DNA of 49,462 bases, taken from an uncultured Bacteroidales bacterium (GTDB lineage: Bacteria > Bacteroidota > Bacteroidia > Bacteroidales > WCHB1-69). How positions within the stretch are numbered: the first letter of the stretch is position 1; every line of letters starts with the position of its first letter. The notes under the pieces were generated by a model. It saw only the letters and a list, made by a program, of their open reading frames with translations. It was not told the origin of the DNA and did not search any database. The stretch lies in the NCBI GenBank assembly GCA_905235135.1, contig CAJOKR010000015.1, forward strand, positions 1 through 49,462. The letters are read 5' to 3'. Position numbers and translations under genes: made by a program. Below are positions 3,159-46,168 of this stretch, in pieces.

Positions 3159-3264
3159 TGAACTATGAACTTTGACTTTTAACTTTGTTTTACTGACGTA
3201 TGCAATACGCTGTTCTTTTGGCTGTTGGCTTTTGGCCTATAAACCTTAAACCCTAAACCTTAAA
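3159..3264. repeat. Composite of three different heptamer arrays between two PLP-enzyme genes
   Basis: Read on the minus (coding) strand, the stop TAG of the upstream gene is followed directly by TTTAAGG-TTTAGGG-TTTAAGG. Next comes a CCAAAAG/CCAACAG run. After a short non-repetitive piece there is an AAGTTCA-like run that reaches the ATG of the downstream gene. Almost the whole spacer is built of 7-bp units of three different sequences. Confidence 0.75.
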
Positions 3265-4527
3265 CTACTTAATCAACGCCATATCCGGAATCGGCTTGTC
3301 GTACTCGCCTTTGGCCAGCCGCTCTTTGATGTCGCGGAAGGCAGCTAAGGTGCGCTCCACGTCCTCCATGCTGTGGGCAGCCGTGGGGATGATGCGGAAG
3401 ATGAGCATTCCGGGAGGGATGACGGGATAGGTAACGATGGAGCAGAAGATGTTGTAGTTCTCGCGCAGGTCAACGGCGATGTTGGCCGCCTGATCGACAC
3501 CGCAATAGAGATGCACAGGCGTGACACATGCCTCTGCAGGTCCAATCTCATAGCCGAGGTCGCGGAAGCCCTTCTGCAGGGCGCGGGTGATCTTCCACAG
3601 TTGGGCTCTCAGACGATCGCCTTCCTCGCTGCGGATAATCTCAAGGCGCTTCAGACAGCCAACCACGATGGGCATCGGGAGCGACTTGGCATACATTTGC
3701 GAACGCATGTTGTAGCGCAGGAAGTTGATGATGCTCTTTTCGGAAGCCACGAAGCCGCCGATGGTGGCCATAGACTTCGCATACGCGCCGATATAGACGT
3801 CAATGTCGTCCATCACGCCGAAATGCTCGGAGGTACCTCTTCCGTGAGGACCCATCGCGCCGAAACCGTGGGCATCGTCAATAAGGATGCGGAATTGATA
3901 TTTTTTCTTGAGGGCCGCAATCTGGTCAAGGATGCCCAGTGCGCCGGTCATGCCGAACACGCCTTCCGTAATCAGCAGCACACCACCGCCCTGTTCTTCG
4001 GCAATCTTGCAGGCGTTGCCAAGGATGCGGTCACAATCTTCGATGTCGTTGTGGCGGAACTTGAAGCTCTTTCCGAGATGCAAGCGGATACCGTCGCGCA
4101 GACAAGCATGGGCCTCCGCGTCATAGACGATGACATCGCGACGACACACGAGAGAATCGATGGTGGACATGATGCCTTGATAGCCGAAGTTAAACTCGAA
4201 AGCGGCCTCTTTGTGTTCGAAATCGGCCAGCTCGCGCTCCAGTTGTTCGTGGAGGGCGGTCTGTCCCGTCATCATACGGCTTCCCATCGGATAGGCCATA
4301 CCCCAGCGGGCGGCACCTTCCGCGTCGGCTTTGCGAACCTCAGGATGGTTGGCCAGTCCGAGGTAGTTGTTGAGGCTCCAGCAGAGCACCTCCTTGCCGT
4401 TGAAACGCATGTGCGGACCTAATTCGCCTTCCAACTTCGGGAATGCGAAATAGCCGTCAATTTTCTCTCTGTATTGTCCAATCGGGCCACCCGATGACTC
4501 TTTTATTCTTTCGAAAATATCTTTCAT
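3265..4527 (-). CDS. Serine-palmitoyltransferase-like alpha-oxoamine synthase, probable cysteate acyltransferase
   Basis: A 420-residue fold-type I PLP enzyme of the alpha-oxoamine synthase family (BioF/Kbl/SPT). Visible landmarks are NNYLGLANHPEV (53-64), a cofactor-stacking His at 140 in YDAEAHACLRDG, DDAHGFGAMG with Asp218 and His220, and the PLP lysine K251 in GAYAKSMATIGGF. The family joins an amino acid to an acyl thioester with loss of CO2. Beside a probable cysteate synthase, the likely reaction is cysteate plus acyl-CoA or acyl-ACP to 3-dehydrocapnine, the committed step of sulfonolipid synthesis in gliding and gut Bacteroidota. It is first in a two-gene unit with a 106-bp spacer. 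Ordinary SPT activity on serine, for sphingolipids, cannot be excluded from sequence alone. Confidence 0.75.
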   Translation of the reverse strand: MKDIFERIKESSGGPIGQYREKIDGYFAFPKLEGELGPHMRFNGKEVLCWSLNNYLGLANHPEVRKADAEGAARWGMAYPMGSRMMTGQTALHEQLERELADFEHKEAAFEFNFGYQGIMSTIDSLVCRRDVIVYDAEAHACLRDGIRLHLGKSFKFRHNDIEDCDRILGNACKIAEEQGGGVLLITEGVFGMTGALGILDQIAALKKKYQFRILIDDAHGFGAMGPHGRGTSEHFGVMDDIDVYIGAYAKSMATIGGFVASEKSIINFLRYNMRSQMYAKSLPMPIVVGCLKRLEIIRSEEGDRLRAQLWKITRALQKGFRDLGYEIGPAEACVTPVHLYCGVDQAANIAVDLRENYNIFCSIVTYPVIPPGMLIFRIIPTAAHSMEDVERTLAAFRDIKERLAKGEYDKPIPDMALIK

Positions 4528-4596
4528 ATTAATGTCGGTTTATTTACTGTTTATCCAATTAACCAATTAAAATGTACTCGTGTTGGTTTGTCGTTA

Positions 4597-4682
4597 CAAG
4601 ACGTAAGACTTTAGACTTTAGACTATTTATGGTGTTTTAAGTATCTCACTCTTAAGTCTTAAGTCTCAAGTCTTAAGTCTCA
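4597..4682. repeat. Heptamer arrays upstream of the PLP pair
   Basis: Two arrays: TTTAGAC-type units at about 4603-4625 and, read on the minus strand, GAGACTT/AAGACTT units at about 4646-4682. The TGA stop of the minus-strand gene ending at 4680 lies inside the second array (GAG TGA GACTTAAG). Confidence 0.75.
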
Positions 4683-6218
4683 CTCCCCTTTCCGTTTCGC
4701 CTCCTCAATCTTCTCGTACTCCTCTAAAAACTGCGGGATGTTGGACATCTCGATACGCTTGTTGAGGATGATACTATGGTCCTTGTTGTCCATGATGAAC
4801 ATCGCGGGGTTACCCATCTCGTAGATGTTAAAATATTCGAGGTAGTCGAGGTTGCCCTTGTTGCCGCCGACCTGCAGCCACGGGTAGTTGTTCTCTTTCA
4901 CGTACTTTTTCCAACGGTCGATGTCGGCGTCGTTGGCGATGGCATAGACATCGAAATTACGCTTGCCGATCGTCTCCAAAGAATCATAAACCTCGCGCAG
5001 CTTCTTCGATTCCTTCTTACAAGTCGGACAGTCGGGGTCGTAGAACCACAGGATGGTGTAAGGTTTGCTCATCCGATAGGAGGAGTGCCAGTTACGCATG
5101 TCGTCGCTCAACGTGGTGTCGGGGATGAACAGCTCGGGCGCGATCTTGCCGATGAGGATGGGCGCCAAACGGGCGGTACGCTTCTGGTACTTGGCCAGCA
5201 CGTCCTCGTCGAGCCAGTAGCACTTGCCGGCCATCTGGTTCGTCATGGCGATGTGGTAGAACACCGCATCATGACCAATCACCTTGCTGGTCTCGAAGTT
5301 GTACGACAGCCAGTCGCAGCAATAATGGTACATAAACGTATCCTTCTCGGTCTTTTTCAAGAAAATGTCGATGTATTTGTTGATGGTATCGGACTCCTGG
5401 TGATAGAGCAGCTTCAGGAAATAATCCTTCATCTTCGGGTCGAATGAGGGAATATAGATGAAGCGGTGGTCGGCAAGGTCGAAGTTGTCCCAGTAGTGCA
5501 GCCGGTAGTAAGCGGCCTGCTTCTGGTAATCCGGCTCGCCGTCTTCCTTCTTATACTCAGGAATGTCGATGTTCTTGTACGACTTCTGCATCTTGGAGAA
5601 GAGGAAATCCGGATTCTTGGCGATGAGATCGTCAATAAACTCTGTCATCTCGTTGTTGATGTTCGTCAGTTTCTCCTTATAGACATTCGCGCTGTCGGTG
5701 TTGCCGGCATCCTCGAATTCCTTGCGTTTCTTGGCCCAATCGCTGGCATCCTTTGACGCCTGCGCGGTCTTCTTCTGGAAACGCAGCATCTCAGCGTTCT
5801 CGGGAGAGTTCACCACCGAGAAGTTGTTCACATCCATCGTGGTGTCCAAATTGTACGTGAAATGCTGGTTATTATCGAGGATGAAGTTGAGATACAGCTT
5901 CTTATCCATGGAAACCAGCGAATACATGCCGTCGTCGTAGCGATCCGTGCCCTTGAACACGAACTTGCCCTTGGAAACGGGTTTCACGGAATCCTTGAGG
6001 ATGAGCTTGTCGTTGTAATGAATCACCATATAGACCAGCGTGTCCTTGGAGTCCTTGATGTTGAAAATCAGCTCGTGGCCGTCCTTATCGCGGTAGTTAG
6101 CCGGATTGTTCTTCGACTTCTGAAGATTCTTCGGCACGTTGTTCTGGGCAAAAATCCCAGATATTCCAAAGATGAAAATGGACATCAACAGAAGAATAAA
6201 CGTTTTTTTCATATTCAT
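4680..6218 (-). CDS. Envelope thioredoxin-fold protein (DUF4369/DUF5106-like), paralogue 1
   Basis: A 512-residue exported protein. A signal peptide (MKKTFILLLMSIFIFG, cleaved near FAQ) is followed by a DUF4369-like beta-rich N-terminal domain (DTLVYMVIHYNDKLILKDS). A helical DUF5106-like middle region comes next. The C-terminal TlpA/AhpC-type thioredoxin domain has the redox motif CPTC in WFYDPDCPTCKKE (~residue 400) and a cis-Pro region GNPAMFI. Likely role is periplasmic thiol-disulfide exchange, partner unknown. The two in-frame starts MNMKK and MKK (6218 or 6212) sit at the edge of a heptamer array, and MKK fits the signal peptide better. It is the second of two tandem paralogues, 24 bp after the first. 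The last codons GEG-stop run into an array. Confidence 0.8.
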   Translation of the reverse strand: MNMKKTFILLLMSIFIFGISGIFAQNNVPKNLQKSKNNPANYRDKDGHELIFNIKDSKDTLVYMVIHYNDKLILKDSVKPVSKGKFVFKGTDRYDDGMYSLVSMDKKLYLNFILDNNQHFTYNLDTTMDVNNFSVVNSPENAEMLRFQKKTAQASKDASDWAKKRKEFEDAGNTDSANVYKEKLTNINNEMTEFIDDLIAKNPDFLFSKMQKSYKNIDIPEYKKEDGEPDYQKQAAYYRLHYWDNFDLADHRFIYIPSFDPKMKDYFLKLLYHQESDTINKYIDIFLKKTEKDTFMYHYCCDWLSYNFETSKVIGHDAVFYHIAMTNQMAGKCYWLDEDVLAKYQKRTARLAPILIGKIAPELFIPDTTLSDDMRNWHSSYRMSKPYTILWFYDPDCPTCKKESKKLREVYDSLETIGKRNFDVYAIANDADIDRWKKYVKENNYPWLQVGGNKGNLDYLEYFNIYEMGNPAMFIMDNKDHSIILNKRIEMSNIPQFLEEYEKIEEAKRKGE

Positions 6219-6242
6219 AATTCAAAATTCTTAATTCATAAA
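6213..6242. repeat. Heptamer array filling the gap between tandem thioredoxin genes
   Basis: On the minus strand, after the TAA stop of the upstream gene: TTATGAA, TTAAGAA, TTTTGAA, TTATGAA, then ATGAAA. The array supplies the candidate start ATG of the downstream gene and repeats TGA/TAA every 7 bases. Confidence 0.75.
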
Positions 6243-7652
6243 TTATTTCATCAAACGCATAATCTCATCTAACGTAACCTGACGTGCAATTATTGCATGA
6301 TTTTTTTGATTATCAATCAACAAAATCACCGGTGTGGTGACAATGTCGAAATACTCAATGTAATCGACGCTGGTTTCGCCCATGGAGGTGCTCAGGTTGA
6401 TCCAGTCGCTGAGGCCGTGTTTCTCGGAGAAGGCTTTCCAGCGGTCGTAGTCATCGTTGACCTCCACGGCAAAGACCTCGAAGTCAAGATTATCGGCCTC
6501 CTTTTGGTAGAGGTCGTGCAGAACCGGGGTCTCCTCCTGACAGTGGTCGCAGTCGGGGTCCCAGAACCAGAGGATGGTATATTTCGTCTGTATCTCGTTG
6601 GTGGAGTGCTGTTTGCCGTTAATATCGAAGGCCGTGAGTTCGGGAATTTGCGCACCGGGGGCGAGCTTGCGGATGCGGTCCATCTGCCGCTTGATCCGCC
6701 GCTCCTGATCCTCGGGAATCCAACCTCGGTCGTAGGTGTCGTAAATATGCAGCATCACCGGCTCATAATACGGGTCGCCGGTCATGTCGAAGATGCCGTA
6801 CAGCCACTGCGCATACAGCCCGCACTGGTACCTTCCGCCACGCGCCGCACGGGTGAGGATGGTATCGACCTCGGTGATAATTTCGGCAGCGGATTCGCGA
6901 TTATTGGATAGCAAATACTCCTTGATGAAGTGGAAAAGCAAGAAGGAACTGTGGCAAAGTCGCGCATCCGTGAAATCCACCTGCGATATCACACGATGGT
7001 AATTATCCTTCGGCACCGCAGAAAAGGCGAAATGGACAGTAGGATCATCCGACTGGGCCGTTTTGAGAATCTCATCCTGTAAACGATAGTATTGACCCAA
7101 GAACGACTGCGGCATGGTGGATGTCAACTCTGCCGCCACTTTCGCACCTTCAAATGCATTCTGTTGCTCATTCCAAGCGAATTCGACCGTTTTATACAAC
7201 TGATTCTCATCAGATTTTCTAAAAGAATGATTGGTAAACCGATCGGGATTATGTATATCCACCTCAATTTCAAAACTATTTTGCTGGTTTATGATGATTT
7301 GAAATGGAAAAAGAGTTTCCCCGAAGATATCATAGAATCCTTTAGGAAACAATTCTGAAATCTCATTTTTCTTTTTTGCCGAACTGTTTTTCCGAAAAGT
7401 GGCTTTGCCGTTTTTCACTTCCGTACTGTCAACCACATGCCAGTTTCCAAAATAGTAACCCCATAGGTATAACTTATACTGTTCCGGCACATCCTTCAAT
7501 ATAATGGATATGTTATACCCATCGCAATAATCCCGCTCCAGATTCTCTTTCCCATACTGAACCGTTTCGTTTTGGGCATTCACTAAACTTGTCGGCCATA
7601 AAACGATGGTCAACAACACTCCTATTGCCCAAAAACGAAACCAGTATTTCAT
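6243..7652 (-). CDS. Envelope thioredoxin-fold protein (DUF5106-like), paralogue 2
   Basis: 469 residues with an N-terminal signal or anchor segment (FWAIGVLLTIVLWPTSLVNA). It has the same architecture as the gene at 4680: a beta-rich N-terminal part (NISIILKDVPEQYKLYLWG), a helical middle, then a TlpA-like thioredoxin domain. Its redox pair is CDHC in WFWDPDCDHCQEE, and TTPVILLIDNQ is the cis-Pro region. The shared layout suggests tandem duplication. The different active-site dipeptides (PT versus DH) imply different redox potentials or partners. It starts 19 bp after the stop of GlmM and is probably co-transcribed with it. Confidence 0.78.
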   Translation of the reverse strand: MKYWFRFWAIGVLLTIVLWPTSLVNAQNETVQYGKENLERDYCDGYNISIILKDVPEQYKLYLWGYYFGNWHVVDSTEVKNGKATFRKNSSAKKKNEISELFPKGFYDIFGETLFPFQIIINQQNSFEIEVDIHNPDRFTNHSFRKSDENQLYKTVEFAWNEQQNAFEGAKVAAELTSTMPQSFLGQYYRLQDEILKTAQSDDPTVHFAFSAVPKDNYHRVISQVDFTDARLCHSSFLLFHFIKEYLLSNNRESAAEIITEVDTILTRAARGGRYQCGLYAQWLYGIFDMTGDPYYEPVMLHIYDTYDRGWIPEDQERRIKRQMDRIRKLAPGAQIPELTAFDINGKQHSTNEIQTKYTILWFWDPDCDHCQEETPVLHDLYQKEADNLDFEVFAVEVNDDYDRWKAFSEKHGLSDWINLSTSMGETSVDYIEYFDIVTTPVILLIDNQKNHAIIARQVTLDEIMRLMK

Positions 7653-7671
7653 CCTATTGCCTAATGCCTAA
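7653..7671. repeat. Heptamer pair between glmM and the thioredoxin gene
   Basis: On the minus strand the TGA stop of glmM is followed by TTAGGCA-TTAGGCA-ATAGG and then ATG. The complete 19-bp spacer is heptamer sequence. Confidence 0.65.
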
Positions 7672-9114
7672 TCACGCCATCAACTCGCGGATGTCCGCCA
7701 TCAGCTTGTTCGCGATGTTCTCAGCGATTTGCGGGGTGAGAGCCTCGGCGTAGATGCGCATGATGGGCTCGGTATTGGAACTGCGCACATGCACCCAGCT
7801 GTCGTCGAAGTCAATACGCACACCATCGACGGTATTCACCTGATAGTTGGCGTATTTCTGGGCTATCTTCGCCAAGATATCCTTCAGGTTGACGGAGCTG
7901 CCCAATTCGGTTTTCTTCTTCACGATGCAGTAGTCGGGATAGAGCGCACGGATTTGGCTGCAACTCTTCTTGGACTCAGCCATATAGGTCAGGAAGAGCG
8001 CAATACCCACGAGCGCGTCGCGTCCGTAGTGCAGTTCGGGATAGATGACGCCTCCGTTACCTTCGCCGCCGATGACGGCATTGGTCGCCTTCATCATCTC
8101 CACCACGTTGACTTCGCCCACCGCGGAAGGCGTGTAAGTCATTCCGTACTTGTCGGTTACATCCTTCAGGGCGCGAGAGGAGGAGAGGTTGGAAACCGTA
8201 TTTCCGGGCGTGTGTTGCAACACGTAGTCGGCCACAGCCACGAGGGTATTCTCCTCCACGAAGAGTGTGCCGTCCTCCTTGACAATAGCGAGACGGTCCA
8301 CATCGGGATCCACCACGAAACCGACATCGTAGTTGGAACGGTTCATGGCGTTGCAGATACCTGCGAGGTTCTCGGGAATCGGTTCGGGATTGTGAGCGAA
8401 AACACCGTTCATCTCGCCGTTCAAGATCGTCACATCGTTGACGCCCAGTGCTTTGAGCAGCACCGGAAGGGCCAATGCGCCGGTAGAATTCACCGTATCC
8501 AGAATCACCTTGAAGTTGGCCTTGGCGATAGCGTTCTTATTCACCAACGGGAGATTCAGAATAGCATCCACATGATCTTGGATGGCGTTCTCGTACAGCT
8601 GATAACTGCCAAGTTTATCGAAAGTTGCATACGTCAGTTCATCCGATTCAGTCAGCTCAACGATACGCTTAGCCTCCGCGCCGGAAACGAACTCGCCCGT
8701 ACGGTCGAGCAGCTTCAGGGCATTCCACTGCATCGGGTTGTGACTGGCGGTAATGATGATGCCACCATCAGCTTTCTGTTGGATGACAGCCATTTCCGTC
8801 GTCGGAGTCGTGGAGAGCCCAAGGTCGATCACGTCAATGCCCATGCTCTGCAACGTACTGCATACCAGACGGTTCACGATGTCGCCGGAGATGCGGGCAT
8901 CGCGCCCGACAACCATACGCATTCTGGAGCAATCTGCGTCCCGCCGATTGTTATTATCCGACTGCGAGGACGCAGTCAGCTCCATAGCCCTCTTCTCAAG
9001 CAGAAAAGTGGCAAAAGCTGTTGTAAACTTCACCACATCAACGGGGGTAAGGTTCTCGCCAATGGTTCCTCCGATGGTTCCTCGGATTCCGGAAATGGAT
9101 TTAATCAATGTCAT
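7672..9114 (-). CDS. glmM: Phosphoglucosamine mutase
   Basis: A 480-residue alpha-D-phosphohexomutase. It begins MTLIKSISGIRGTIGG, the usual Bacteroidota GlmM start. The phosphoserine loop is TASHNPMQWNALK, the Mg2+ loop is DPDVDRLAIV, the sugar-binding loop is GGEGNGGVIYPELHYGRDA, and the C-terminal phosphate-binding loop is RSSNTEPIMRIY. It converts glucosamine-6-phosphate to glucosamine-1-phosphate for UDP-GlcNAc, and hence peptidoglycan and LPS. A low-complexity insertion (SSQSDNNNRRDAD, ~residues 49-61) lies before the conserved VGRDAR segment. Phosphomannomutase activity is the main alternative. Confidence 0.85.
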   Translation of the reverse strand: MTLIKSISGIRGTIGGTIGENLTPVDVVKFTTAFATFLLEKRAMELTASSQSDNNNRRDADCSRMRMVVGRDARISGDIVNRLVCSTLQSMGIDVIDLGLSTTPTTEMAVIQQKADGGIIITASHNPMQWNALKLLDRTGEFVSGAEAKRIVELTESDELTYATFDKLGSYQLYENAIQDHVDAILNLPLVNKNAIAKANFKVILDTVNSTGALALPVLLKALGVNDVTILNGEMNGVFAHNPEPIPENLAGICNAMNRSNYDVGFVVDPDVDRLAIVKEDGTLFVEENTLVAVADYVLQHTPGNTVSNLSSSRALKDVTDKYGMTYTPSAVGEVNVVEMMKATNAVIGGEGNGGVIYPELHYGRDALVGIALFLTYMAESKKSCSQIRALYPDYCIVKKKTELGSSVNLKDILAKIAQKYANYQVNTVDGVRIDFDDSWVHVRSSNTEPIMRIYAEALTPQIAENIANKLMADIRELMA

Positions 9115-10875: not shown

Positions 10876-10890
10876 AGCTTATTCGTTACC

Positions 10891-10977
10891 GCCCCACACT
10901 GCGGCTTCGCCTTGTGTGGGGTTATTTGCGCTCCGCGCGTTTTGCCTCTTCGAGGCTGCTCAAGGTATTATGTTTAT
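10891..10977 (-). repeat. Three-hairpin dispersed element, copy 1
   Basis: Read on the minus strand: GCCTC-GAA-GAGGC, then GCGC-GGA-GCGC, then CCCCACAC...GGC-GAA-GCC...GTGTGGGG. It lies 16 bp upstream of the EamA start codon, so it should be in its leader RNA. Confidence 0.8.
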
Positions 10978-10999
10978 AATAATTGTTGCTTTTCGGACC

Positions 11000-11034
11000 A
11001 TCATTGTACATTGTACATTCTACATTGTACATTG
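11000..11034. repeat. Heptamer array after the MurL-like gene
   Basis: Five units of ACATTGT/ACATTCT on the plus strand (CAATGTA on the coding strand), directly after the TAA stop of the gene ending at 11035. Unlike most other arrays this unit offers no recurrent stop triplet. Confidence 0.75.
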
Positions 11035-12348
11035 TTACGGGGCCATATTGTAATACTCCTCCAGCATGTCGTCCTCCATTTGGGCGAGGGTTGCGTTGAC
11101 GTAGTGCTTCAGCAAGTACTTGTCGCCGTGGGTGTTGCAGATACGGCGGAGGGCTTCGTTGACCTCACGCACGGTGCCGACGCATTCGAAGGGCTTGATC
11201 TTGGAGAGACCGGAAAGCTCGTCGAAGGTCTGCTCTAAGGTCGGGTCGTCGAGAAGGTCGTGGCCGAAAATCTCCTGTAGCTGAGCATCGGGGATAAACG
11301 GGGAGAGGATGATGTAGGCGAAGAGGCACTTCGGACAATGACCGCACCATATGTTCTCCTTGCTGCCGACGTTGCAGCTCTTGAAGACCGGAAAATACTG
11401 CGGGTACTGTGCAAAACGCTCGGCAATCTGAAGCTCGTTGAGCGGACGCAAGTGGCTGTAATAGTGGTTGCTGTCGCCCACCCAATCGTGGACGTAGTCG
11501 CGGAAATCGGTCTCGAATTCCAGCGATTTAGAGTACTGGTGGTTGATGTAGGTACCGGGGATGGTCGGCTCGTTCGCGCTCGACTCGTTCGAAAGAGCCA
11601 CGTCGCGGATGCCGGTAACCGCGCTCAGCAGCACCGAGTAGAAGGCGAGCATCGCGGAGAACGGCGTATGTCCGTTGAGGTAGCCGTTCGCGTTGAGTTC
11701 CAACAGCTTGCGGTCGATTTCGCGATGGAGAATCAGGATTTGCTCCTCGCGGTCAAAGCCGGCCACGCGGGCGCAGTCGAGGGTCGCGCCGCGCGGGTTG
11801 ATGATGAATGGCACCACCTTGCGCGTGCGACGAAGATCCTCCAGCGTCACCACGGAATCTTTGCCCCCACCGATGGGAACAATCACGGAATCAGTGTCTT
11901 GCGCTTTCGGATAGGAAAGCGAAGAAGAAGCTTTCGTTCCAACAGGGAATACAAAATTCATGAACTGCAGGTGGTCGGTTTCAATGCTGTTTTTGTACAT
12001 AAACTCGCCCAGTCCGTACCAATAGAGCTTCCGCCACCACCACTGCTGGTCCTCATTCAGCGAATAGGGCTTGATGAGGATGGTGGGACAGCAGGCGCAC
12101 TTCCAGTAGCTGATCAGCTCGATCATCCCGATATGGAAGATGATGCTCTCCAACTGCTTGAGGTCAAAGGTGTTCCAGTCTGGCGTATGCTCCCCAGCTG
12201 ACAGCACCATCTTCGGGGCGAAATGGATCTCCTCCCCTATCGAAAAATGGAAAACGAGGTGCAAGTCCCCGTTTTCGATGCCATATTGATACCCCTCATA
12301 CGTAAATACGGGGTGTTTTTCGCGTAATTCGTCAAATTTTGCGTTCAT
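11035..12348 (-). CDS. PP-loop protein resembling MurL (UDP-MurNAc-L-Ala-L-Glu epimerase)
   Basis: 437 residues. An ATP-pyrophosphatase PP-loop is visible (VPIGGGKDSVVTLE, ~155-168). A C-terminal cysteine motif WCGHCPKCLFAYIILSPF may bind metal. The motif pair and length recall MurL, the ATP-dependent epimerase first described in Xanthomonas. MurL acts with MurD2 to set D-glutamate in peptidoglycan by epimerising UDP-MurNAc-L-Ala-L-Glu, bypassing glutamate racemase. No murD paralogue lies in this window. It starts 3 bp after argS ends and is probably co-transcribed with it. Other PP-loop functions, such as tRNA modification, are possible and the argS linkage would fit that too. Confidence 0.55.
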   Translation of the reverse strand: MNAKFDELREKHPVFTYEGYQYGIENGDLHLVFHFSIGEEIHFAPKMVLSAGEHTPDWNTFDLKQLESIIFHIGMIELISYWKCACCPTILIKPYSLNEDQQWWWRKLYWYGLGEFMYKNSIETDHLQFMNFVFPVGTKASSSLSYPKAQDTDSVIVPIGGGKDSVVTLEDLRRTRKVVPFIINPRGATLDCARVAGFDREEQILILHREIDRKLLELNANGYLNGHTPFSAMLAFYSVLLSAVTGIRDVALSNESSANEPTIPGTYINHQYSKSLEFETDFRDYVHDWVGDSNHYYSHLRPLNELQIAERFAQYPQYFPVFKSCNVGSKENIWCGHCPKCLFAYIILSPFIPDAQLQEIFGHDLLDDPTLEQTFDELSGLSKIKPFECVGTVREVNEALRRICNTHGDKYLLKHYVNATLAQMEDDMLEEYYNMAP

Positions 12349-19395: not shown

Positions 19396-19619
19396 ATGAA
19401 CAAAGAAAAAGAAGTCTTATATTTTTTAGAAGCGAATAAATTCCCTGAAAAGATGTCGGACAGCCGAAGGACATCCATTTCTCGGGCGACAAGCAGAAAT
19501 GGGGTTTCATTCTGAGAAATATGCATCTGATGGAGGAACAGGATTTGCCGGGCGAGGACGTTATCTTCAAAGGGCGCAGCCCCACGGCCACGCCCTCATT
19601 CTTAATTCTGAACTCTTAA
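19396..19619 (+). pseudogene. Frameshifted and 3'-truncated small gene of unknown function
   Basis: From the ATG at 19396 the frame reads MNKEKEVLYFLEANKFPEKM and stops early. After a one-base loss near 19460-19466 a second frame continues convincingly as PKDIHFSGDKQKWGFILRNM and EDVIFKGRS. It then runs into a heptamer-like array that encodes SFLILNS and the TAA stop. The original C-terminus thus appears to have been replaced by array sequence. No family was recognised. It has its own promoter-like arm upstream. Confidence 0.6.
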
Positions 19620-19630
19620 TTCTTAATTGA
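19598..19630. repeat. Heptamer/octamer-like array at the broken gene's 3' end
   Basis: ATTCTTA, ATTCTGA, ACTCTTA, ATTCTTA, ATTGAAC on the plus strand, between the broken gene and the FISUMP gene stop at 19632. It contains TAA/TGA on the plus strand in successive frames. Confidence 0.65.
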
Positions 19631-26219: not shown

Positions 26220-27009
26220 AGCCACGCAACCATTTCAGGAACTCCTCCGGCCAAACCGAGCATCCTTTTCCTGCCATCTTCTCCGCATTCACCCCGAAAC
26301 CGTGGCCGCCGGTCTTCGGGCGGACGATATGATACGGTTTGCCTTTGACCGCCAACGAATCGGCCATCATTTGGGCGTTCTGCCAATTCACGGTGGGGTC
26401 GTCGTCGCAGCTCAGCAGGAAGACTGGACAGCGCACCTTGTCGGCGTGCAGTTCCATCGAGAGGGAATCCCACATCACGGGATTGTGTTGGCGACGTTCG
26501 CCCATAAGCCCGCGGCGGGAACGCTTGTGTACGTACGGCTCGCGCATGGTGACCACCGGATAGATGGGAGCCACGAAATCGGGAGCGACACTGTCAGGCA
26601 GCAGTTCCGCAGCACTCAACACCAAATGCCCGCCGGCGGAGAAGCCCATCGCCCCGACGGTCGTGTAGCCCTTCGATTTAACGGTTTTTAACGCATTTTC
26701 CAACGCGTTCAGCTGACCGGGATACTGCGTGCAGCAACTTCTACGGATGTGGGTGAACCACGACCACCAGCCGGAAACCGGATATTCCAGCACGTACGCG
26801 GCATAGCCGTTCGCGTTCAGCCACTGCGCCACCTCGCTGCCCTCACCGCGTTTCGCCAACCAATAGTAACTGCCGCCGGGACAAACTATCACGGCGGTGT
26901 CGGACTTTCCATTCTCGGGTAAAAACTCCGTTATCTTTTGCGCGAAAACGTTGTCAACCCACAACGTCGCACAAATCAAAACCATCAATATTGTTCGGAT
27001 ATTATTCAT
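26212..27009 (-). CDS. Exported alpha/beta hydrolase (esterase-like)
   Basis: 265 residues. The signal peptide is MNNIRTILMVLICATLWVDN, cleaved near VFAQ. The oxyanion loop is VIVCPGGSYYWLA, in the HGG-like position. The nucleophile elbow is GFSAGGHL (Ser ~123), the acid is in SCDDDPTVNW and the catalytic His is in GGHGFGV. It resembles the endo-1,4-beta-xylanase/acetyl-esterase-like BD-FAE group that removes acetyl groups from polysaccharides. The signal peptide fits a periplasmic role. It starts 3 bp past the stop of the upstream gene; both codons lie in a heptamer array. Confidence 0.85.
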   Translation of the reverse strand: MNNIRTILMVLICATLWVDNVFAQKITEFLPENGKSDTAVIVCPGGSYYWLAKRGEGSEVAQWLNANGYAAYVLEYPVSGWWSWFTHIRRSCCTQYPGQLNALENALKTVKSKGYTTVGAMGFSAGGHLVLSAAELLPDSVAPDFVAPIYPVVTMREPYVHKRSRRGLMGERRQHNPVMWDSLSMELHADKVRCPVFLLSCDDDPTVNWQNAQMMADSLAVKGKPYHIVRPKTGGHGFGVNAEKMAGKGCSVWPEEFLKWLRGSL

Positions 27010-27018
27010 AATTCATAA
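27004..27018. repeat. Heptamer array supplying stop and start codons
   Basis: On the minus strand TTATGAATTATGAATAAT. The first copy gives the TGA stop of the oxidoreductase (27015-27013), the next copy gives the ATG start of the esterase (27009-27007). This is likely a translation-coupling junction. Confidence 0.7.
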
Positions 27019-28512
27019 TTTTCTCACAATCCGATCCTTCTCCCCCATCACCGCCTCCGCCGTCATCACCGCGGTGAGGGGTACCCCGCAGCAACCGTGG
27101 AGATAGACGTTCTGGCCGGTCATGAAGAGGTTTTCGGCCTTGGTTCGGATGGGCAGGTAGCCGGCGTAGGGGTCACGACAGTCTTTTCGCAAACCGTAGA
27201 GCGACCCGTCCGGCTCGTTAAAGTAGTCGCGGACGGTGAGCGGGGTGGCATCATAGACAGCCTCCACACAGGAGCGAAAACCGGGCATCTTCTTCTCCAA
27301 CTTGTTCAAAATCAACTCCGTATGCTTTCTTTTCCACGCCTCGTACTCCTGCCCGCGCTTCCCGACGGTGGTCCCCTGCCATCGCTCGCACATCGAGAAC
27401 GGGGAAAAGACAATCACCTGCAAAGCCCGCGCAAATGGTCCCTGATTCTTCGCACACGGAGTAAAATAGACGAAGTTTTGCGGCCAATCCTGCTCCACGT
27501 ATTTGCCGAAGTTCCATACCTTATCGTAATCATCCCAACAGTAGCACGGATGGTTCAAGTACGGGAACATCCCCTCCTTGAGCACCGCATAAACGCAGTA
27601 CGCGGAATAGTTGTTAGGAGCAGCCGACAACCGCGTGCGGGCCGCCTTCGTGAACAACTGATTATTCACAATTTTTAACATTGCTTGCGGATGGATGGAG
27701 GAGATGAAGACATCGGTTTCGAACTCCCGGCCGTCGGCGGTGGAAAGCGACTGCACTCGCCCACCCTCCATGCGGATGTCGGAAACCTCAGCATTGGTCA
27801 GCACCTCGCCCCCTAACTCGCCGATGCGCCTAACCAACGCCTCCGCCAGCTGCTCCGCCGGTCCTTCGAAACGGGAATGGCCGCTGATATACAGATAGTT
27901 GATTAAGGCAAAGATGTAGGCGGGCGTAAATCCAGCCTCACCCCCGCACAAGGGACTAAGGTAGGCCAGCAGACTGCGCAAACGCGGGTCGCGCACGTGG
28001 TCGGCAATAAACTGCGACGACGACTGGTAAAAGGCCTCGTCGCCATTGGAGCCCGAAACGCTGCCCGGACGGAGGAAGAAGAAATCAACTTGGTCAGCGA
28101 GGGAGAACAGCCTGTCCGCGTAACGTCGGATGCTCTCACGTTCGTCGGGAAATTGCTGGCAGAAATAATCGGTGAAGGGTTCGAGACCCTGCGGTACCCG
28201 ATAGCTGCGACCGTCGGCGAAGCAGAAAACCTCATCCATGCAGTCGGCATCAACGGCACGGTAGGAGATCTGGTCCAAGATGCCGAGGTGGCGGCAGATG
28301 CGGTTGAGCGAACCTCCGGGCTGGAGGCCACCTACCACGTGCATACCAGCGTCAAAGGTCACCCCGTTGCGGGTGAACGACTGCAGACCGCCGCCCACGT
28401 GCGCACTCCGCTCCAGGACAGTCACCCTGTAACCCTCCTTGGCCAAAAGCGCGCCCGTGAAGAGCCCGCCGATGCCGCCGCCGATAATCACCACAGCTCT
28501 ATCCATTTTCAT
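27013..28512 (-). CDS. CrtI-like FAD-dependent oxidoreductase (phytoene-desaturase family)
   Basis: 499 residues. The N-terminal Rossmann motif is VVIIGGGIGGLFTGALLAKE with the FAD-binding acid in VTVLERSAHVGG. FDAGMHVVGG follows, and the C-terminal FAD motif is NLFMTGQNVYLHGCCGVPL. Bacteroidota use relatives for carotenoid, flexirubin or lipid desaturation/isomerisation; no other pigment gene is near. The last codons KL-stop fall in the heptamer array. A TATTTTTG promoter element lies 12 bp upstream of the start, so the leader is very short. Confidence 0.82.
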   Translation of the reverse strand: MKMDRAVVIIGGGIGGLFTGALLAKEGYRVTVLERSAHVGGGLQSFTRNGVTFDAGMHVVGGLQPGGSLNRICRHLGILDQISYRAVDADCMDEVFCFADGRSYRVPQGLEPFTDYFCQQFPDERESIRRYADRLFSLADQVDFFFLRPGSVSGSNGDEAFYQSSSQFIADHVRDPRLRSLLAYLSPLCGGEAGFTPAYIFALINYLYISGHSRFEGPAEQLAEALVRRIGELGGEVLTNAEVSDIRMEGGRVQSLSTADGREFETDVFISSIHPQAMLKIVNNQLFTKAARTRLSAAPNNYSAYCVYAVLKEGMFPYLNHPCYCWDDYDKVWNFGKYVEQDWPQNFVYFTPCAKNQGPFARALQVIVFSPFSMCERWQGTTVGKRGQEYEAWKRKHTELILNKLEKKMPGFRSCVEAVYDATPLTVRDYFNEPDGSLYGLRKDCRDPYAGYLPIRTKAENLFMTGQNVYLHGCCGVPLTAVMTAEAVMGEKDRIVRKL

Positions 28513-36525: not shown

Positions 36526-36572
36526 TTTCACTAATCACTATTCACTTTTGCCTTTTGCCTTTTCCCTATTCC
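36526..36572. repeat. Heptamer array after the TolC-family gene
   Basis: On the minus strand, AAG-TAG stop, then GGAATAG, GGAAAAG, GCAAAAG, GCAAAAG, TGAATAG, TGATTAG, TGAAATA. Seven consecutive 7-bp units start exactly at the stop codon. The preceding plus-strand stretch GACTGCTTAAGGAACATG (near 36507) resembles the tail of the three-hairpin element. Confidence 0.8.
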
Positions 36573-38039
36573 CTACTTCCCCAATGCCTTCTCAAGATAA
36601 AGATAATCCATACGAATCTCTATTTCCGCATCCACCACTTCGGATTTCGCTGACATCCAGGCCGTTTGAGCCGCCATCAAATCGCTGCTGCTGATGACAC
36701 CCGCCTCGAACGACTCATTCGCTAAACGAAGGTTCTCCTCCGCATTCAGCAGGTTGCTTTGCGCCTGCACGAGTTTCTTGTTCGCCACCTCTAACTCATA
36801 GTTCAACTTGTTTACTTGCAGCTCGATAGCATTGCGAGCCTCCTCCAATTCATACTGCACCTCAGCGCGTTTGTGCTTGGCCGCCTTCACCGCGAGGATA
36901 TCCTCCGCATGGCAAATAGGGATATTGACGACCACGCCGGCTGTGAACATTCCGGCAAACTTGTTCTGGAAACCGTTGAAAACGTTAGGATTACTCACCA
37001 AATACGACCCGGTCACCGCCACGTTCGGCAGCAGACCGGCCGTCGCCATCTTCACATTCGACTTGGCCATCTGATCGCCGATTTCCAACAGTTTGATCTC
37101 CTTACGATTATTCCAAACGTTCTGCATATCAAGCGTTTGCTCAGGAAGAAAAGACTTCATATCCACTTCCTCTGCAATTTCGTAATCGCCTGTCAGATTC
37201 AGTCCACAGAGTTGATAAAGCACCATTTTCGAGAGTGCCAGTCCGTTTTCCGCTTTGGTGAGGCTCATCTGCGCTTCGTTGAGTTTCACACGCACCTGCG
37301 TCAGGTCGCTTTGCGTGGCCACACCCTCGGCCACCATCGCTTCCACGTTTTGATTCAAAGTATCCAAAAGATTACAATATTGACGGGCAAGCAACTGCTT
37401 GTGTTGCAACGAGATCACACGCCAGTAGGCTTCATCGACCTGAATGAGCAGATTCTCCTGGGATTGGTCGGCTTGCAGGACTGCCGCCTGGTTGGTGAGT
37501 TTTGCGGTTTTGTACATGGCGCGGATTTTGCCTCCGAGATAGATGGGCTCGGACACCGTAACCGCCCCCGCAAATACGTTTCGCGTATCGATGTTAAAGG
37601 CATCCGTAATCTCCTGACCGACACCGTTTAACGCCTCCTCCACATTCATCCCGGACAAACTCTGCGCCAATGCCATGGCCAACTGAGGATCGCTTTGCAT
37701 CAGCTGCATGATGACCGGCTGCAGGGCGGGTGTCACCTGCGACATCACCGTGGTGCCCATGTTATTGATGGTGGCCTGCTGCTCATCGCTCAGCAGCGAG
37801 ATGTTTTTCTGGTTCCAGTTGTAAGTGCCATTCACACTGACTTTTGGGAAGAACTGCGCCAATGCAGCCCCTTTCAGTGCCTCTGTCTCGTCGACACGCT
37901 CCTGCGCGATCTTCAGACGATTGTTCGAAGCGAGGGCCAGTTCGTGACATTTTTCCAAGGTCAAGACCTGTTGTGCGCCAACCGAAGGTACCAGCCCGAA
38001 CATAACTACCGTGATAATCAACGATTTAATCTTTTTCAT
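36573..38039 (-). CDS. TolC-family outer-membrane efflux protein
   Basis: 488 residues with a signal peptide (MKKIKSLIITVVMFGLVPSV, cleaved near GAQ). Two OEP repeats are visible: LTLEKCHELALASNNRLKIAQERVDE at the start of the first, and LKINxx-like helices with TKAENGLALSKMVLYQLCG. The C-terminal half has LEEARNAIELQVNKLNYELEVANKKLVQAQ and LRLANESFEAGVISSSDLMAAQ, the classic end of TolC helix pairs. It forms the outer-membrane exit duct of the pump and is the first gene of the six-gene unit. Its promoter has both -33 and -7 elements. Confidence 0.93.
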   Translation of the reverse strand: MKKIKSLIITVVMFGLVPSVGAQQVLTLEKCHELALASNNRLKIAQERVDETEALKGAALAQFFPKVSVNGTYNWNQKNISLLSDEQQATINNMGTTVMSQVTPALQPVIMQLMQSDPQLAMALAQSLSGMNVEEALNGVGQEITDAFNIDTRNVFAGAVTVSEPIYLGGKIRAMYKTAKLTNQAAVLQADQSQENLLIQVDEAYWRVISLQHKQLLARQYCNLLDTLNQNVEAMVAEGVATQSDLTQVRVKLNEAQMSLTKAENGLALSKMVLYQLCGLNLTGDYEIAEEVDMKSFLPEQTLDMQNVWNNRKEIKLLEIGDQMAKSNVKMATAGLLPNVAVTGSYLVSNPNVFNGFQNKFAGMFTAGVVVNIPICHAEDILAVKAAKHKRAEVQYELEEARNAIELQVNKLNYELEVANKKLVQAQSNLLNAEENLRLANESFEAGVISSSDLMAAQTAWMSAKSEVVDAEIEIRMDYLYLEKALGK

Positions 38040-39861: not shown

Positions 39862-39909
39862 GTTGGTTTACGGTTTACGGTTTACGGTTTATGGTTTACG
39901 GTTTGGGAC
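39862..39909. repeat. AAACCGT heptamer array between TPR and C69 genes
   Basis: On the minus strand, after the TAA stop: AAACCGT, AAACCAT, AAACCGT, AAACCGT, AAACCGT, AAACCAAC, then ATG. Each unit junction reads GTAAAC, so TAA recurs every 7 bases. The whole 48-bp spacer is array. Confidence 0.85.
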
Positions 39910-40779: not shown

Positions 40780-40835
40780 TTTATGACACATTGTTGATCA
40801 AAATTGGTTTTTAAAAGGAATACTTCACCTGTAAT

Positions 40836-40855
40836 TCTACATTCTACATTCTCAA
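40836..40855. repeat. Short heptamer array containing the cupin stop codon
   Basis: On the minus strand GAATGTA-GAATGTA-GAATTAC; the TAG stop after Met lies at the first unit junction (ATG TAG AATG). Confidence 0.65.
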
Positions 40856-41191: not shown

Positions 41192-41227
41192 TGTGGTGAT
41201 ATTTTGGTAGTGTTCGAAATCAATCCG

Positions 41228-41235
41228 CAAAAATA
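41228..41235 (-). promoter_or_regulatory. -7 promoter element of the cupin gene
   Basis: TATTTTTG on the minus strand, exact TAnnTTTG, 36 bp before the ATG at 41191. Confidence 0.65.
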
Positions 41236-41292
41236 CACAAATCATTGTAACCTTTTGAGATTTTTGCATCATATTCATATAGATGAATTTTC

Positions 41293-41933: not shown

Positions 41934-42045
41934 TTCATTCATAATTCATAATTCATAATTCATAATTCTTCATTCTTCATTCTTCATTCTTCATTCTTCA
42001 TTCTTCATTCTTCATTCTTCATTCTTCATTCTTCATTCTTCATTA
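41934..42045. repeat. Largest heptamer array: (ATAATTC)4 then (TTCATTC)10
   Basis: Sixteen contiguous 7-bp units between two convergent genes. One TTCATTC is followed by four ATAATTC (41941-41968), ten perfect TTCATTC (41969-42038) and TTCATTA. The unit sequence switches abruptly at 41969. The TGA stop of the minus-strand gene (42035-42033) lies within the last units, so its final residues NEE are array-encoded. On the minus strand TGA recurs every 7 bases. A simple-sequence tract of this purity should be length-variable. Confidence 0.95.
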
Positions 42046-42870: not shown

Positions 42871-42898
42871 AGCGGTCCACCCTTCCGGATGAACCGCT
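42871..42898 (-). terminator. Terminator-like hairpin after aquaporin gene
   Basis: On the minus strand AGCGGTTCATCC-GGAA-GGGTGGACCGCT: a 12-bp stem with two G-T pairs and a GGAA tetraloop, followed by TTTCCATTTAT. It lies after the heptamer array that follows the aquaporin stop. Confidence 0.55.
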
Positions 42899-42931
42899 AA
42901 TTGCTAATTGCTAACTACTAACTGCTAATTA
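42897..42931. repeat. TTAGCAA heptamer array at the aquaporin stop
   Basis: On the minus strand GAG-TAA stop overlapping the first unit, then TTAGCAG, TTAGTAG, TTAGCAA, TTAGCAA, TTAGCGG. TAG recurs every 7 bases. Confidence 0.8.
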
Positions 42932-43621
42932 CTCTTTCGAGCATGCCAGTCCCTTCCACACCAATGCGGAAAGGGCGGCACCAATCATCGGGGCCACGAT
43001 GAAGACCCACACATCGGCAAGAGCCTGACCGCCGGCGAACAACGCGGGTCCGAAGGAACGGGCCGGGTTGACGGAGGTGCCGGTGAGGTTGATGCAGACC
43101 AAGTGGACGAGGATCAGAGTCAGACCGATGGCCAGACCGGCGAGGTTGCCTGCACCGAGCTTGCTGTCGGTGGTACCGAGAACCACGAGCACGAAGATGA
43201 AGGTGGCGATGATCTCCACGAGGCAAGCGCCCCAAACACCGCCGGCGTTAGCCACGCCATTGCAGCCGAGACCCATCATGCCTTCGGCGATGCCTTCAGC
43301 GGAGGGGGTCACAATGTTGACGAGTGCTAACAGAACAGCACCGGCAAGGATACCGCCGATGAACTGGCCAATCCAGTAGATGCAGGCCTCTTTCCAAGTC
43401 ATGCGGCCGGAAAGCGCCACTGCGAAAGTGATGGCCGGGTTGATGTGGCAGCCCGTGATGCCGCCGATGGTGTAGGCCATGGCGACTACCGTGAGACCGA
43501 AAGCGATGGCCGTGCCCACTACACCAGCAGGGGTGGCACAACCCAAGAACATTGCCGTTCCGCAGCCCAGCAGGGTGAGAACGAACGTTCCAATCAGTTC
43601 AGCGAATAATTTTTTTGTCAT
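42929..43621 (-). CDS. aqpZ: Aquaporin (AqpZ-like MIP channel)
   Basis: 230 residues with six membrane helices. The two selectivity-filter loops are GCHINPAITFAVALSG (NPA 1) and TSVNPARSFGPALF (NPA 2). Constriction residues look water-type (a small-residue/Arg filter, NPARS). The N-terminal segment is KLFAELIGTFVLTLLGCGTAMF, as in AqpZ. It allows water flow through the inner membrane. It has its own TACTTTTG promoter with an octamer array in the leader. Confidence 0.92.
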   Translation of the reverse strand: MTKKLFAELIGTFVLTLLGCGTAMFLGCATPAGVVGTAIAFGLTVVAMAYTIGGITGCHINPAITFAVALSGRMTWKEACIYWIGQFIGGILAGAVLLALVNIVTPSAEGIAEGMMGLGCNGVANAGGVWGACLVEIIATFIFVLVVLGTTDSKLGAGNLAGLAIGLTLILVHLVCINLTGTSVNPARSFGPALFAGGQALADVWVFIVAPMIGAALSALVWKGLACSKE

Positions 43622-43647: not shown

Positions 43648-43700
43648 TAGGTTACTCGGTTAAACGGTTACGCGGCTAGACGGTTAGACGGTTAGCGGTT
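43648..43700. repeat. TAACCGNN octamer array in the aquaporin leader
   Basis: On the minus strand six or seven 8-bp units: TAACCGTC, TAACCGTC, TAGCCGCG, TAACCGTT, TAACCGAG, TAACCTAT. This one lies between the promoter and the start codon, not at a stop. The unit matches the octamer at 15126-15153. Confidence 0.75.
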
Positions 43701-43716
43701 ATTAATTTCGAACGGG

Positions 43717-44464: not shown

Positions 44465-44465
44465 A

Positions 44466-44618: not shown

Positions 44619-44634
44619 TCATTCTACATTTTCC
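44612..44634. repeat. Short heptamer array containing the symporter stop codon
   Basis: On the minus strand AAAATGTA-GAATGAA-GAATATA; the TAG stop after Met sits at the unit junction, as in the cupin gene. Confidence 0.6.
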
Positions 44635-46096
44635 TCCCGCTCGCCAGCATCAGCGCCCCGAAAACCAGCGCGCCGTTCACGATTAGCAGCTCGTAGCCGA
44701 ACTTGTAGCCGCAAAGCCATTGCTGGGAGTGCGTGGCTAAGATGTAGCAGAAGACAGGGATGCCGAGGGCGATGACCGGGACGAGCCAGCGGCGCGAACG
44801 CGGAATCTCGCGCTTGGTGAAGATGCCGAAGGCGAACAGACCTAAGATCGGGCCGTAGGTGTAGGAGGCCACCATAAAGATGATGCGGATGAGCGCGTCG
44901 TTATGGTGCTGCGAGACGATGAGAATCACCGTCAGGAAGAGCGCGGAGATGATCAGGTGGACAATGCGGCGGACGTTGATCTGCTGCTTCTCAGAGGGGA
45001 AACGCTTCTCGATGTCGAGCAAGTCGTAGCAGACGGTGGTCGTAAGAGCCGTGAAGGTGCCGTCCGCGCTGGAGAAGCCCGCCGAAATGAGCCCGAACAC
45101 GAAGACCAACGCCCCCACCTTGCCCAGGTAGTTAAAGGCTATCTCCGGATAGATGCGGTCAGTCGGGAACTGGCTGACATCCACGCCGTTGTGCTGCGCG
45201 AAGACGAGCAACATACCGCCTAACAGCAGGAAGAGGATGTTGACGACCACCAGAATGCAGGTGAACGAGAACATATTGCGCTGCGATTCCCGCAACGACT
45301 TGCACGACAGGTTCTTCTGCATCATATCCTGGTCCAGACCAGTCATCGCAATGGTGATGAACATGCCGCCGAAAATCTGCTTCAGGAAGTAGCTGTTGTT
45401 GCGCCAGTCGGTGTTGAATATGGTGCGGCAGTCGGTACCGTCCTTGCCCACAGTGGCCATTTGCGCCCAGATGTCGCTGAACGAGCCGCCCATGTTGCGC
45501 ATGATCACCACAATCGTAATCATCAGTGCGCCAATCAGAAAGGTGGTCTGCAGCATGTCCGTCCACACCACGGTCTTGATGCCGCCGCGGAACGTGTAGA
45601 GCAGGATGATGGCAATCATCACGATGGCCGTGGCCCAAATCGGGATGTTCCAGCCGTCGAAGACGAATATCTGCAACACAAAGATTACCAGATACATACG
45701 CAACGCCGAACCCAACAACCGCGACAGAAAGAAGAACAACGCACCCGTTTTATGCGCCTCCTCCCCTATCCTCTTGCCGAGATACTCGTAGATAGAAGTC
45801 ACGTTGAGCCGGTAATAGAGTGGCAGCAGCAACAACGCAATCACCGCGTAACCAAGGATATAGCCCAGCACGACCCCGAAATAGGTGAACTGGGTGGTAT
45901 AGACATCGCCGGGCACCGACATGAAGGTCACGCCCGACAGCGAACTGCCGATCATGCCGTAAGCCACCACAAACCAGGGCGACTTACGGTTGCCGGTAAA
46001 GTAACTCATCTTGTCCGTCTTGCGCGAGGTAAACCCCGTAATGACGAACAGCATCACCACGTAGAGGGCGAAGAAGGTGAAAATGAAGGTCTGCAC
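44624..46096 (-). CDS. Sodium:solute symporter (SSS family)
   Basis: 490 residues, about 13 membrane helices. Landmarks are MSYFTGNRKSPWFVVAYGMIG then SSLSGVTFMSVPG in the first helices. Others are LNVTSIYEYLGKRIG, YTFRGGIKTVVWTDMLQTTFL in the middle, and LISAGFSSADGTFTALTT for the second sodium-site helix. Members import sugars, amino acids, nucleosides or sialic acid with Na+. Substrate cannot be told here. The ATG at 46096 is preceded by a short A/T-rich gap, then the pgi stop and array. Confidence 0.92.
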   Translation of the reverse strand: MQTFIFTFFALYVVMLFVITGFTSRKTDKMSYFTGNRKSPWFVVAYGMIGSSLSGVTFMSVPGDVYTTQFTYFGVVLGYILGYAVIALLLLPLYYRLNVTSIYEYLGKRIGEEAHKTGALFFFLSRLLGSALRMYLVIFVLQIFVFDGWNIPIWATAIVMIAIILLYTFRGGIKTVVWTDMLQTTFLIGALMITIVVIMRNMGGSFSDIWAQMATVGKDGTDCRTIFNTDWRNNSYFLKQIFGGMFITIAMTGLDQDMMQKNLSCKSLRESQRNMFSFTCILVVVNILFLLLGGMLLVFAQHNGVDVSQFPTDRIYPEIAFNYLGKVGALVFVFGLISAGFSSADGTFTALTTTVCYDLLDIEKRFPSEKQQINVRRIVHLIISALFLTVILIVSQHHNDALIRIIFMVASYTYGPILGLFAFGIFTKREIPRSRRWLVPVIALGIPVFCYILATHSQQWLCGYKFGYELLIVNGALVFGALMLASGRKM

Positions 46097-46137
46097 CTGT
46101 TTGTTGTTTCGTTCTTACTTTTTATACTTCCAAAAGG

Positions 46138-46168
46138 CTGTTAGCTATTGGCTATTGGCTGTTGGCAA
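46138..46168. repeat. GCCAATA heptamer array after pgi
   Basis: On the minus strand GCCAACA, GCCAATA, GCCAATA, GCTAACA, GCC, starting 18 bp past the TAG stop of pgi. The junction ATAGCC repeats TAG. Confidence 0.75.

Follow-up and report, generated by a model that had tools for sequence, protein, structure and literature searches.

Tandem arrays of 7-nt units occur at both ends of genes in an uncultured Bacteroidales bacterium, with the G-bearing strand mostly reading away from the gene, a head-to-head order within gaps and unit words that change between species. The window, that is, the whole stretch of DNA analysed, is 49 kb of contig C15 (CAJOKR010000015.1) from a draft genome of 3.26 Mb in 118 contigs. 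With moderate confidence, we regard these elements as heptanucleotide arrays of the short tandemly repeated repetitive (STRR) kind, made by strand-polar iterative DNA synthesis in 7-nt steps at gene borders and kept where they are harmless. Bacterial heptamer arrays have been on record since the 1990s, the STRR heptanucleotides of cyanobacteria reportedly by Mazel in 1990, and we know of no accepted origin for them. To this known class we add the outward polarity, the head-to-head order and the turnover of words at orthologous gene ends.

Arrays were detected in two ways, with Tandem Repeats Finder (TRF) and with an autocorrelation scan (score of at least 9 or at least 10, as stated). The own-genome sample covers 833 kb including the window, about a quarter of the genome, with genes called in one pooled run; samples 1 and 2 are stretches from other contigs of this genome, 20 per sample. 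Clade A comprises other array-rich species of the genus and clade B further species of it, with 20 stretches each. In two further sets beyond these, pieces that contained N or could not be shuffled were left out. The comparisons of turnover are between species.

The period exceeds chance by a wide margin. The intergenic DNA of the window (30 pieces, 8.9 kb) holds 13 period-7 arrays with a score of at least 10 versus 0.0 in 10 dinucleotide shuffles, and the corresponding intergenic counts are 45 versus 0.3 in sample 1 and 47 versus 0.5 in sample 2. In the window, each of the remaining periods between 4 and 15 has 0 to 2 arrays, except period 14, a harmonic (7 arrays). The original prediction had proposed comparing period 7 with periods 6, 8 and 9, and these are indeed far rarer: the 833 kb contain 104 arrays of period 7 versus 0, 0, 15, 3, 6 and 1 of periods 5, 6, 8, 9, 10 and 11, with about 0.2 in shuffled DNA. 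Clade A has 41 arrays of period 7 and 2 of each of periods 6, 8 and 9 (shuffled 0.0), and clade B has 18 versus 1, 9 and 1. The arrays are mainly non-coding, with 58 in 60 kb of intergenic DNA (13 in the window, 45 elsewhere) versus 8 in 366 kb of coding DNA, where period 7 is unremarkable (8 arrays with a score of at least 10 versus 8, 6 and 13 for periods 6, 9 and 12). Per 100 kb, arrays number 12.5 in the own genome, 10.4 in clade A and 4.5 in clade B; the figure falls to 3.0 across 65 loci from other Bacteroidota and allied phyla and to 0.5 across 12 loci from Firmicutes.

As the original prediction had it, the period is conserved and the sequence is not: the 238 arrays show 97 distinct units, with several unit families per genome. 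Because it is the period that is conserved, one common protein-binding site is unlikely, again in agreement with the prediction. The same diversity led us to drop a fixed unit template suggested by the window (AG-NN-WWW or RG-NNNNN). For one exact pattern, TTAAACC x3 with one position given as Y, the own genome has 458 occurrences; the pattern is also present in 14 of the genus's 35 other species and in a single genome among 24 from other families. After period 7, period 8 is the commonest intergenic period in the own sample, and period-8 arrays (TAACCGTG, TAACCGCT, GGTTACAC) directly adjoin period-7 TTAAACC arrays. Four contigs, C8, C10, C12 and C38 (L012, L014, L016 and L042), start within TTAAACC or GGTTTAA arrays, so that assembly probably broke off at the longest arrays, with too few of them counted as a result.

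The original prediction announced at least fourteen array-bearing junctions in the window and gave 13 coordinates. Twelve of the 13 have period 7 by both methods (score of at least 9), some of them with few copies by TRF (2.9 at 7672 and 2.4 at 27013), whereas the one at 44624, about 2.5 imperfect units, is below threshold in both. In most, the array was also said to begin at or contain the stop codon. The whole codon lies inside the array at 27013, 36573, 40844 and 42033, the array shares just its last base at 3265, 4680, 7672 and 11035, and it abuts the stop within 1 nt at 6243 and 42929. The other two are clear of the stop. At 46187, the stop is 20 nt away from the array, and at 39910 the array (39865-39904) starts 5 nt past the stop and runs to within 3 nt of the next start, hence it belongs to the start side. 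Four further arrays of the window were absent from the prediction (3159-3186, 3218-3236, 4598-4624 and 19598-19628; Table 1). What had been seen was mainly the stop-following half, and arrays also precede starts and promoter-like motifs.

Of the own-sample arrays, 38 are in contact with a stop end alone and 22 with a start end alone, 9 span the whole gap and 38 lie mid-gap. At both kinds of gene end, the outward-reading strand tends to have more G than C: this is so in 33 of 37 stop-flush arrays (plus one tie) and 21 of 22 start-flush arrays, or 54 of the 59 that touch one gene end. Clade A was the sole set fetched after GC skew had been chosen as the measure, hence the cleanest test of polarity, and it gives 19/21 (plus two ties) and 5/5, or 24/26 pooled; clade B gives 7/8 and 2/3. 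At array-free ends, the skew after the stop is -0.02 in the own genome and +0.04 in clade A versus +0.18 and +0.39 with arrays, and before the start it is -0.04 and 0.00 versus -0.62 and -0.45.

Neighbouring arrays in one gap follow the same rule. A G-type array precedes a C-type array in 23 pairs and the reverse is found in 3 (15 versus 1 in the own sample, 6 versus 0 in clade A), and 26 further pairs are of one type. The polarity is seen in 37 of 44 arrays within 20 nt of a start and in 22 of 37 further off (two ties). It is kept in 15 of 19 arrays located 5' of TAnnTTTG, a promoter-like motif of the Bacteroidetes literature, and the figure becomes 12 of 13 once three arrays that had been counted from each side are removed. 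Such arrays probably lie outside the leader RNA, and the persistence of the polarity there makes a cause confined to the leader RNA unlikely.

Turnover is best seen downstream of the gene for phosphoglucose isomerase (PGI). All 12 close genomes (the window and 11 others, with proteins 85-96% identical) have arrays at this junction, and in 11 of them the array begins between positions -3 and +2 relative to the stop. The stop-side units belong to four families: AGTTAGC/T (4 genomes), AGTTTCA (4), TTGGCTT (2, plus the remnant in the window) and ATAATTC (1). By eye, the two arms are reverse complements of each other in 6 of the 12, and partly so in L060. Among 17 readable deeper relatives, 3 have arrays and 14 have none, the array-free ones having gaps of 9-34 nt where the next start could be placed (7 loci). 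At least five unit types occur at each of the junctions 4680-3265 (9 rows) and 3265-1926 (8 rows), including the period-8 unit CGATGATA in L163 and L168. Several are found at junction 11035-10003 (5 rows), where one relative has a 1-nt gap and no array; array-free relatives exist at junction 40844 as well, and no heptamer arrays were seen by eye at junctions 12352 (3 rows) and 38161 (9 rows). Units also drift stepwise and in phase within single arrays (L043 9517; window 36573). Overall, unit words drift within an array and get replaced between sister species, and place, period and polarity persist.

At the protein level, the C-terminus KPGVK of PGI becomes KPGV or KPGA in L052, L054, L056 and L060, among 17 of the loci L049-L078 (those with a match on the plus strand reaching a stop). 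Trimming of this terminus by arrays is suggestive only, as the array-free L066, L070 and L072 are without the last Lys too. At the other end of the PGI frame (window 47500-47605), relatives mostly align from residue 34-40 or slightly earlier, and nucleotides 41-76 recur on three other contigs and resemble an intergenic element; on both counts, the true start is probably about 35 codons later.

We propose that the arrays originate at the DNA level. Seven nucleotides at a gene border would be copied repeatedly, by slippage or by iterative extension of DNA 3' ends, and the products would be retained wherever nothing is broken. Copying would be strand-polar: whether at a stop end or at a start or promoter end, the strand with G and little C would read 5'-3' outward from the gene, giving the layout gene - (G-type units)n - (C-type units)n - gene. 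We infer that the polarity comes from synthesis at 3' ends that face the gap, and selection may act only by removing harmful insertions. An array that eats into a gene end would supply a new stop, necessarily within the array, and matching units in both halves would make a transcript hairpin possible; each would be a consequence and not a purpose. Slippage-type growth, the alternative offered by the original prediction, stays plausible, and Mrazek 2007, as cited in PMC4679880 and PMC4692102, put forward a polymerase-slippage hypothesis for heptameric repeats in bacteria, with a 7-nt DNA polymerase footprint. Polarity at gene borders combined with word replacement is a testable signature for telling a mutational origin, through polar 3'-end synthesis, apart from binding-site, stop-signal and transposon ideas. 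The genus includes species rich in arrays and others poor in them, which makes it a setting in which to look for the enzyme.

Several points weigh against this explanation. Simple slippage alone does not predict polarity, and no enzyme or template for the arrays was found in searches for Ku, RVT_1 and Y1 in 40 genomes of the genus. The polarity rule was conceived on sample 1, and GC skew was adopted as its measure once samples 1 and 2 were known. This measure replaced a first test, for a purine-rich outward strand relative to the nearest end, which was weak as a rule (15/22 and 15/23 in sample 1, 19/27 and 14/18 in sample 2, 0/3 on the start side in the window). Gene boundaries were taken from our own simple caller, and the 38 mid-gap arrays of the own sample were left out of polarity scoring. 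In other Bacteroidota the polarity is weak or absent (8/12 stop-flush, 4/5 start-flush, 12/17 pooled), and outside the genus the head-to-head order is 2 versus 2. Array-free starts are mildly C>G in clade B (-0.15) and in other Bacteroidota (-0.10), so that part of the start-side bias in clade B and more distant genomes could be compositional. Finally, long pure TTAAACC arrays can span from stop to start (L025 9659).

A function at the RNA level is unlikely. The G-type array after a stop would pair with the C-type array that precedes the following gene to form an intercistronic stem-loop that protects or terminates the upstream transcript, with units free to change provided that both arms change. 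In 28 adjacent pairs of the own genome, arms of the same gap do match better than re-paired arms (mean 8.86 versus 6.32, sd 0.82; 2/400 shuffles), and the inverted score is at least 12 in 10 pairs versus 3.6 expected. However, a stricter first test on 19 junctions, using the first and last array, fell within 300 re-pairings (8.89, maximum 10.11), and the relatives yield only 4 usable pairs, as their loci extend just a short way beyond the gene (inverted mean 11.75 versus 9.42, 51/400). In RNA folding, different units give strong hairpins at the PGI junction (z of -5.2 in L051, -5.1 in L059 and -3.9 in L054) and at the 4680 junction (-4.0 in the window, -7.7 in L164 and -14.1 in L162), yet z is -0.9 at the window's own PGI junction and near 0 at the 4680 junction of L159, L163, L167, L168 and L169. 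Since the same orthologous site has strong stems in some cases and none in others, RNA structure is optional. Moreover, partnerless arrays are numerous, hairpins need no G-type-first order although this order prevails, and the polarity persists 5' of promoter-like motifs. A precedent for such stems exists in Nostoc, where, according to PMC4476775, 7-nt repeats build the P6b stem of the trnL intron and the classes TDNGATT and NNTGAGT repeatedly replace each other at one site. Complementary heptamer arms and class replacement between relatives are found here too (at the PGI junction; not at every junction), but at protein-gene junctions across the genome, whereas the Nostoc system is one stem-loop of a tRNA-Leu group I intron.

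We are more doubtful about template-flexible end extension, in which DNA opened at a gene border would have the 3' ends of both sides extended by iterative 7-nt copying favouring G over C and would then be joined. If this were true, these would be telomere-like head-to-head arrays whose word changes with each event, and gene borders would preserve traces of breaks that had healed. In telomere arrays, of TTTAGGG and other words, the G-bearing strand runs 5'-3' outward from the retained DNA, and fused ends are head-to-head. Our arrays share both traits; unlike telomeres, they have no single template word, are chromosome-internal and occur with no general reverse transcriptase. Indeed, RVT_1 is found in 10 of the 40 genomes of the genus, and we rejected reverse transcriptase as the maker. 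It is commoner in array-rich genomes (7/15, including two sub-cut-off fragments, in the own genome and G063) than in the others (3/25), and was not found in the array-bearing G003, G007, G012, G013, G020, G026, G031 and G062. Ku end joining was rejected as well, with Ku in 0/40 genomes and detected in the control Bacillus subtilis. The genus drafts are incomplete, so gene absences are soft.

Equally doubtful is the copying of ready-made array cassettes between loci, by recombination or as a mobile hairpin element, in place of growth in situ. The recurrence of the same words at many loci and in several species, and the joint change of both arms at the PGI junction, are as expected from cassettes, and Y1 transposases occur in 36/40 genomes of the genus. 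Against this stand the 97 distinct units, the in-phase drift inside one array, and the lack of any terminal motif or target duplication at the junctions, which were read by eye only. Y1 genes are equally frequent in array-poor species (4 each in G015, G027 and G028 versus 1 in G002, G009 and G063), and with no contrast between array-rich and array-poor genomes we rejected the Y1 transposase associated with repetitive extragenic palindromes (REP) as the maker. REP-like palindromes, from GTAGAGACGC at the start to GCGTCTCTAC at the end, recur in gene gaps of the own genome. A second dispersed intergenic element begins CCTTAA/CCTTGA-GCAG-CC(T/C)...GAGGCAAAACGCGC and often contains a CCCCACAC...GTGTGGGG hairpin.

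The original prediction saw in the arrays a fail-safe end at which stop-bearing units of period 7 halt ribosomes in every frame. We now consider this very improbable, as it is already largely refuted by the stop-triplet test. Early three-frame closure itself is real, occurring within 10 codons at 65% of 55 array-bearing ends versus 11% of 604 others, but looks like a by-product that AT-rich period-7 DNA yields for free. Stop-placed arrays exceed the uniform expectation (7 versus 3.0 in the window, 15 versus 10.2 in sample 1, 15 versus 9.1 in sample 2), as had been predicted, but only moderately and within the range of 2000 random placements, and starts are occupied too. The predicted excess of stop triplets over shuffled units is weak in the own genome, where 28 of 38 stop-flush units have one versus 23.5 when shuffled (reached by 53/2000 shuffles; 20 on the other strand), and there is none in clade A (15/23 versus 14.1; 844/2000; 13 on the other strand). 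Hence 10/38 and 8/23 stop-side units have no stop triplet. Start-flush units, where no stop is needed, are richer in them (19/22 in the own genome, 4/5 in clade A), and units contain less of the dinucleotide TA than expected (z -3.0). As a purpose, the fail-safe stop is thus not borne out by the placement, stop-triplet and TA tests. MacGregor 2015 (PMC4679880) describes TAACTGA repeats as stopping all three frames and reads this as a constraint on their location. The same paper makes the point for TAACTGA that an array extending into a gene must contain its stop.

An assembly artefact of short-read metagenomes is hardly credible: all genus genomes seen by name are metagenome-assembled genomes (MAGs) and the four contigs named above begin inside arrays, but arrays also lie within contigs at orthologous places of separately assembled species, and the same kind is reported in cultured strains in PMC4679880 and PMC4692102.

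Among known systems, the arrays resemble STRRs and heptameric simple sequence repeats in their unit length of 7, their intergenic location and their several unit words per genome, variable copy number being an STRR feature. They differ from STRR accounts in the polarity, head-to-head order and word replacement at orthologous ends measured here, and in the phylum. PMC4679880 places TAACTGA direct repeats in Beggiatoaceae, Cyanobacteria and five Bacteroidetes, near starts or overlapping stops and with strain-specific sets. The placement and the three-frame stops are alike, but that system has one dominant word and ours about 97. TAACTGA arrays number none in the own sample and two in clade B (stretches L224-L243; canonical AACTGAT). 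The same polarity is shown by the GGGAATC/GGGGAYT repeats of Xanthomonas and Nostoc, whose G strand, according to PMC4692102, points outward from the open reading frame and whose length and sequence vary between relatives. There the repeats are G-runs capable of forming G-quadruplexes, whereas most units here are without GGG; in our genomes, outward G-strand polarity extends to words without G-runs and also to the region 5' of promoter-like motifs. For Bacteroidales, we found no report of outward polarity in the Creative Commons-licensed PMC literature, a search with subscription journals and preprints outside its range.

The closest named records of this genome are MAGs, several of them rumen-derived. 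The window carries a flexirubin acyl-CoA ligase gene, and two of its frames contain longer tandem repeats (Table 1).

Table 1. Period-7 arrays of the window and other repeats (positions refer to the window unless a locus is named)
Feature	Location	Strand	Detection and remarks
Start-side array, units like AGTTCAA/AGTCAAA, before gene 1926-3158	3159..3186	-	Score 9, gap 0 to start
AGCCAAA/AGCCAAC array, inward partner in gap below gene 3265-4527	3218..3236	-	TRF + scan
TTTAAGG/TTTAGGG array after stop of gene 3265-4527	3240..3265	-	TRF + scan
AGTCTAA array, inverted partner of 4650-4680	4598..4624	-	TRF + scan; inverted score 20; RNA fold z -4.0
GACTTAA/GACTTGA array after stop of gene 4680-6218	4650..4680	-	TRF + scan
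TTATGAA/TTAAGAA array, 1 nt past stop of 6243-7652, entering start of 4680-6218	6213..6241	-	Scan
ATTAGGC array, 2.9 copies, fills gap after 7672-9114	7653..7672	-	TRF + scan
CAATGTA array after stop of 11035-12348	11002..11035	-	TRF + scan
AAGAATT-type array after stop of 19632-22217	19598..19628	-	TRF + scan
AATTATG array, 2.4 copies, spans stop of 27013-28512 and start of 26212-27009	27004..27020	-	TRF + scan
Drifting array AGGGAAT-AGGGAAA-AGGCAAA-AGTGAAT-AGTGATT, holds stop of 36573-38039	36528..36575	-	Scan
AAACCGT start-side array, ends 3 nt before start of 38161-39861	39865..39904	-	TRF + scan
AGAATGT array holding stop of 40844-41278	40834..40852	-	TRF + scan
AGAATGA array turning into GAATTAT, holds stop of 42033-42797	41937..42044	-	TRF + scan, score 95
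TTAGCAA/TTAGCAG array abutting stop of 42929-43621	42896..42928	-	TRF + scan
AGCCAAC/AGCCAAT array, 20 nt after stop of PGI gene 46187-47605	46137..46166	-	TRF + scan, PGI junction comparison
Period-8 arrays beside TTAAACC arrays	L038 12616-12863; L043 7732-8091; L019 11679-11887; window 43650-43701		
REP-like palindromes	L019 12221-12406; L021 18709-18962; L032 3651-3794; L038 15650-15828; L043 7732-8091		
Second dispersed element	window 10846-11064, 36431-36602; L013 14336-14600; L022 9361-9557		
66-bp repeat, 4.5 copies, inside frame 47671-48627	window 48206-48498		
27-bp repeat, 3.2 copies, inside frame 28620-29099	window 28650-28736

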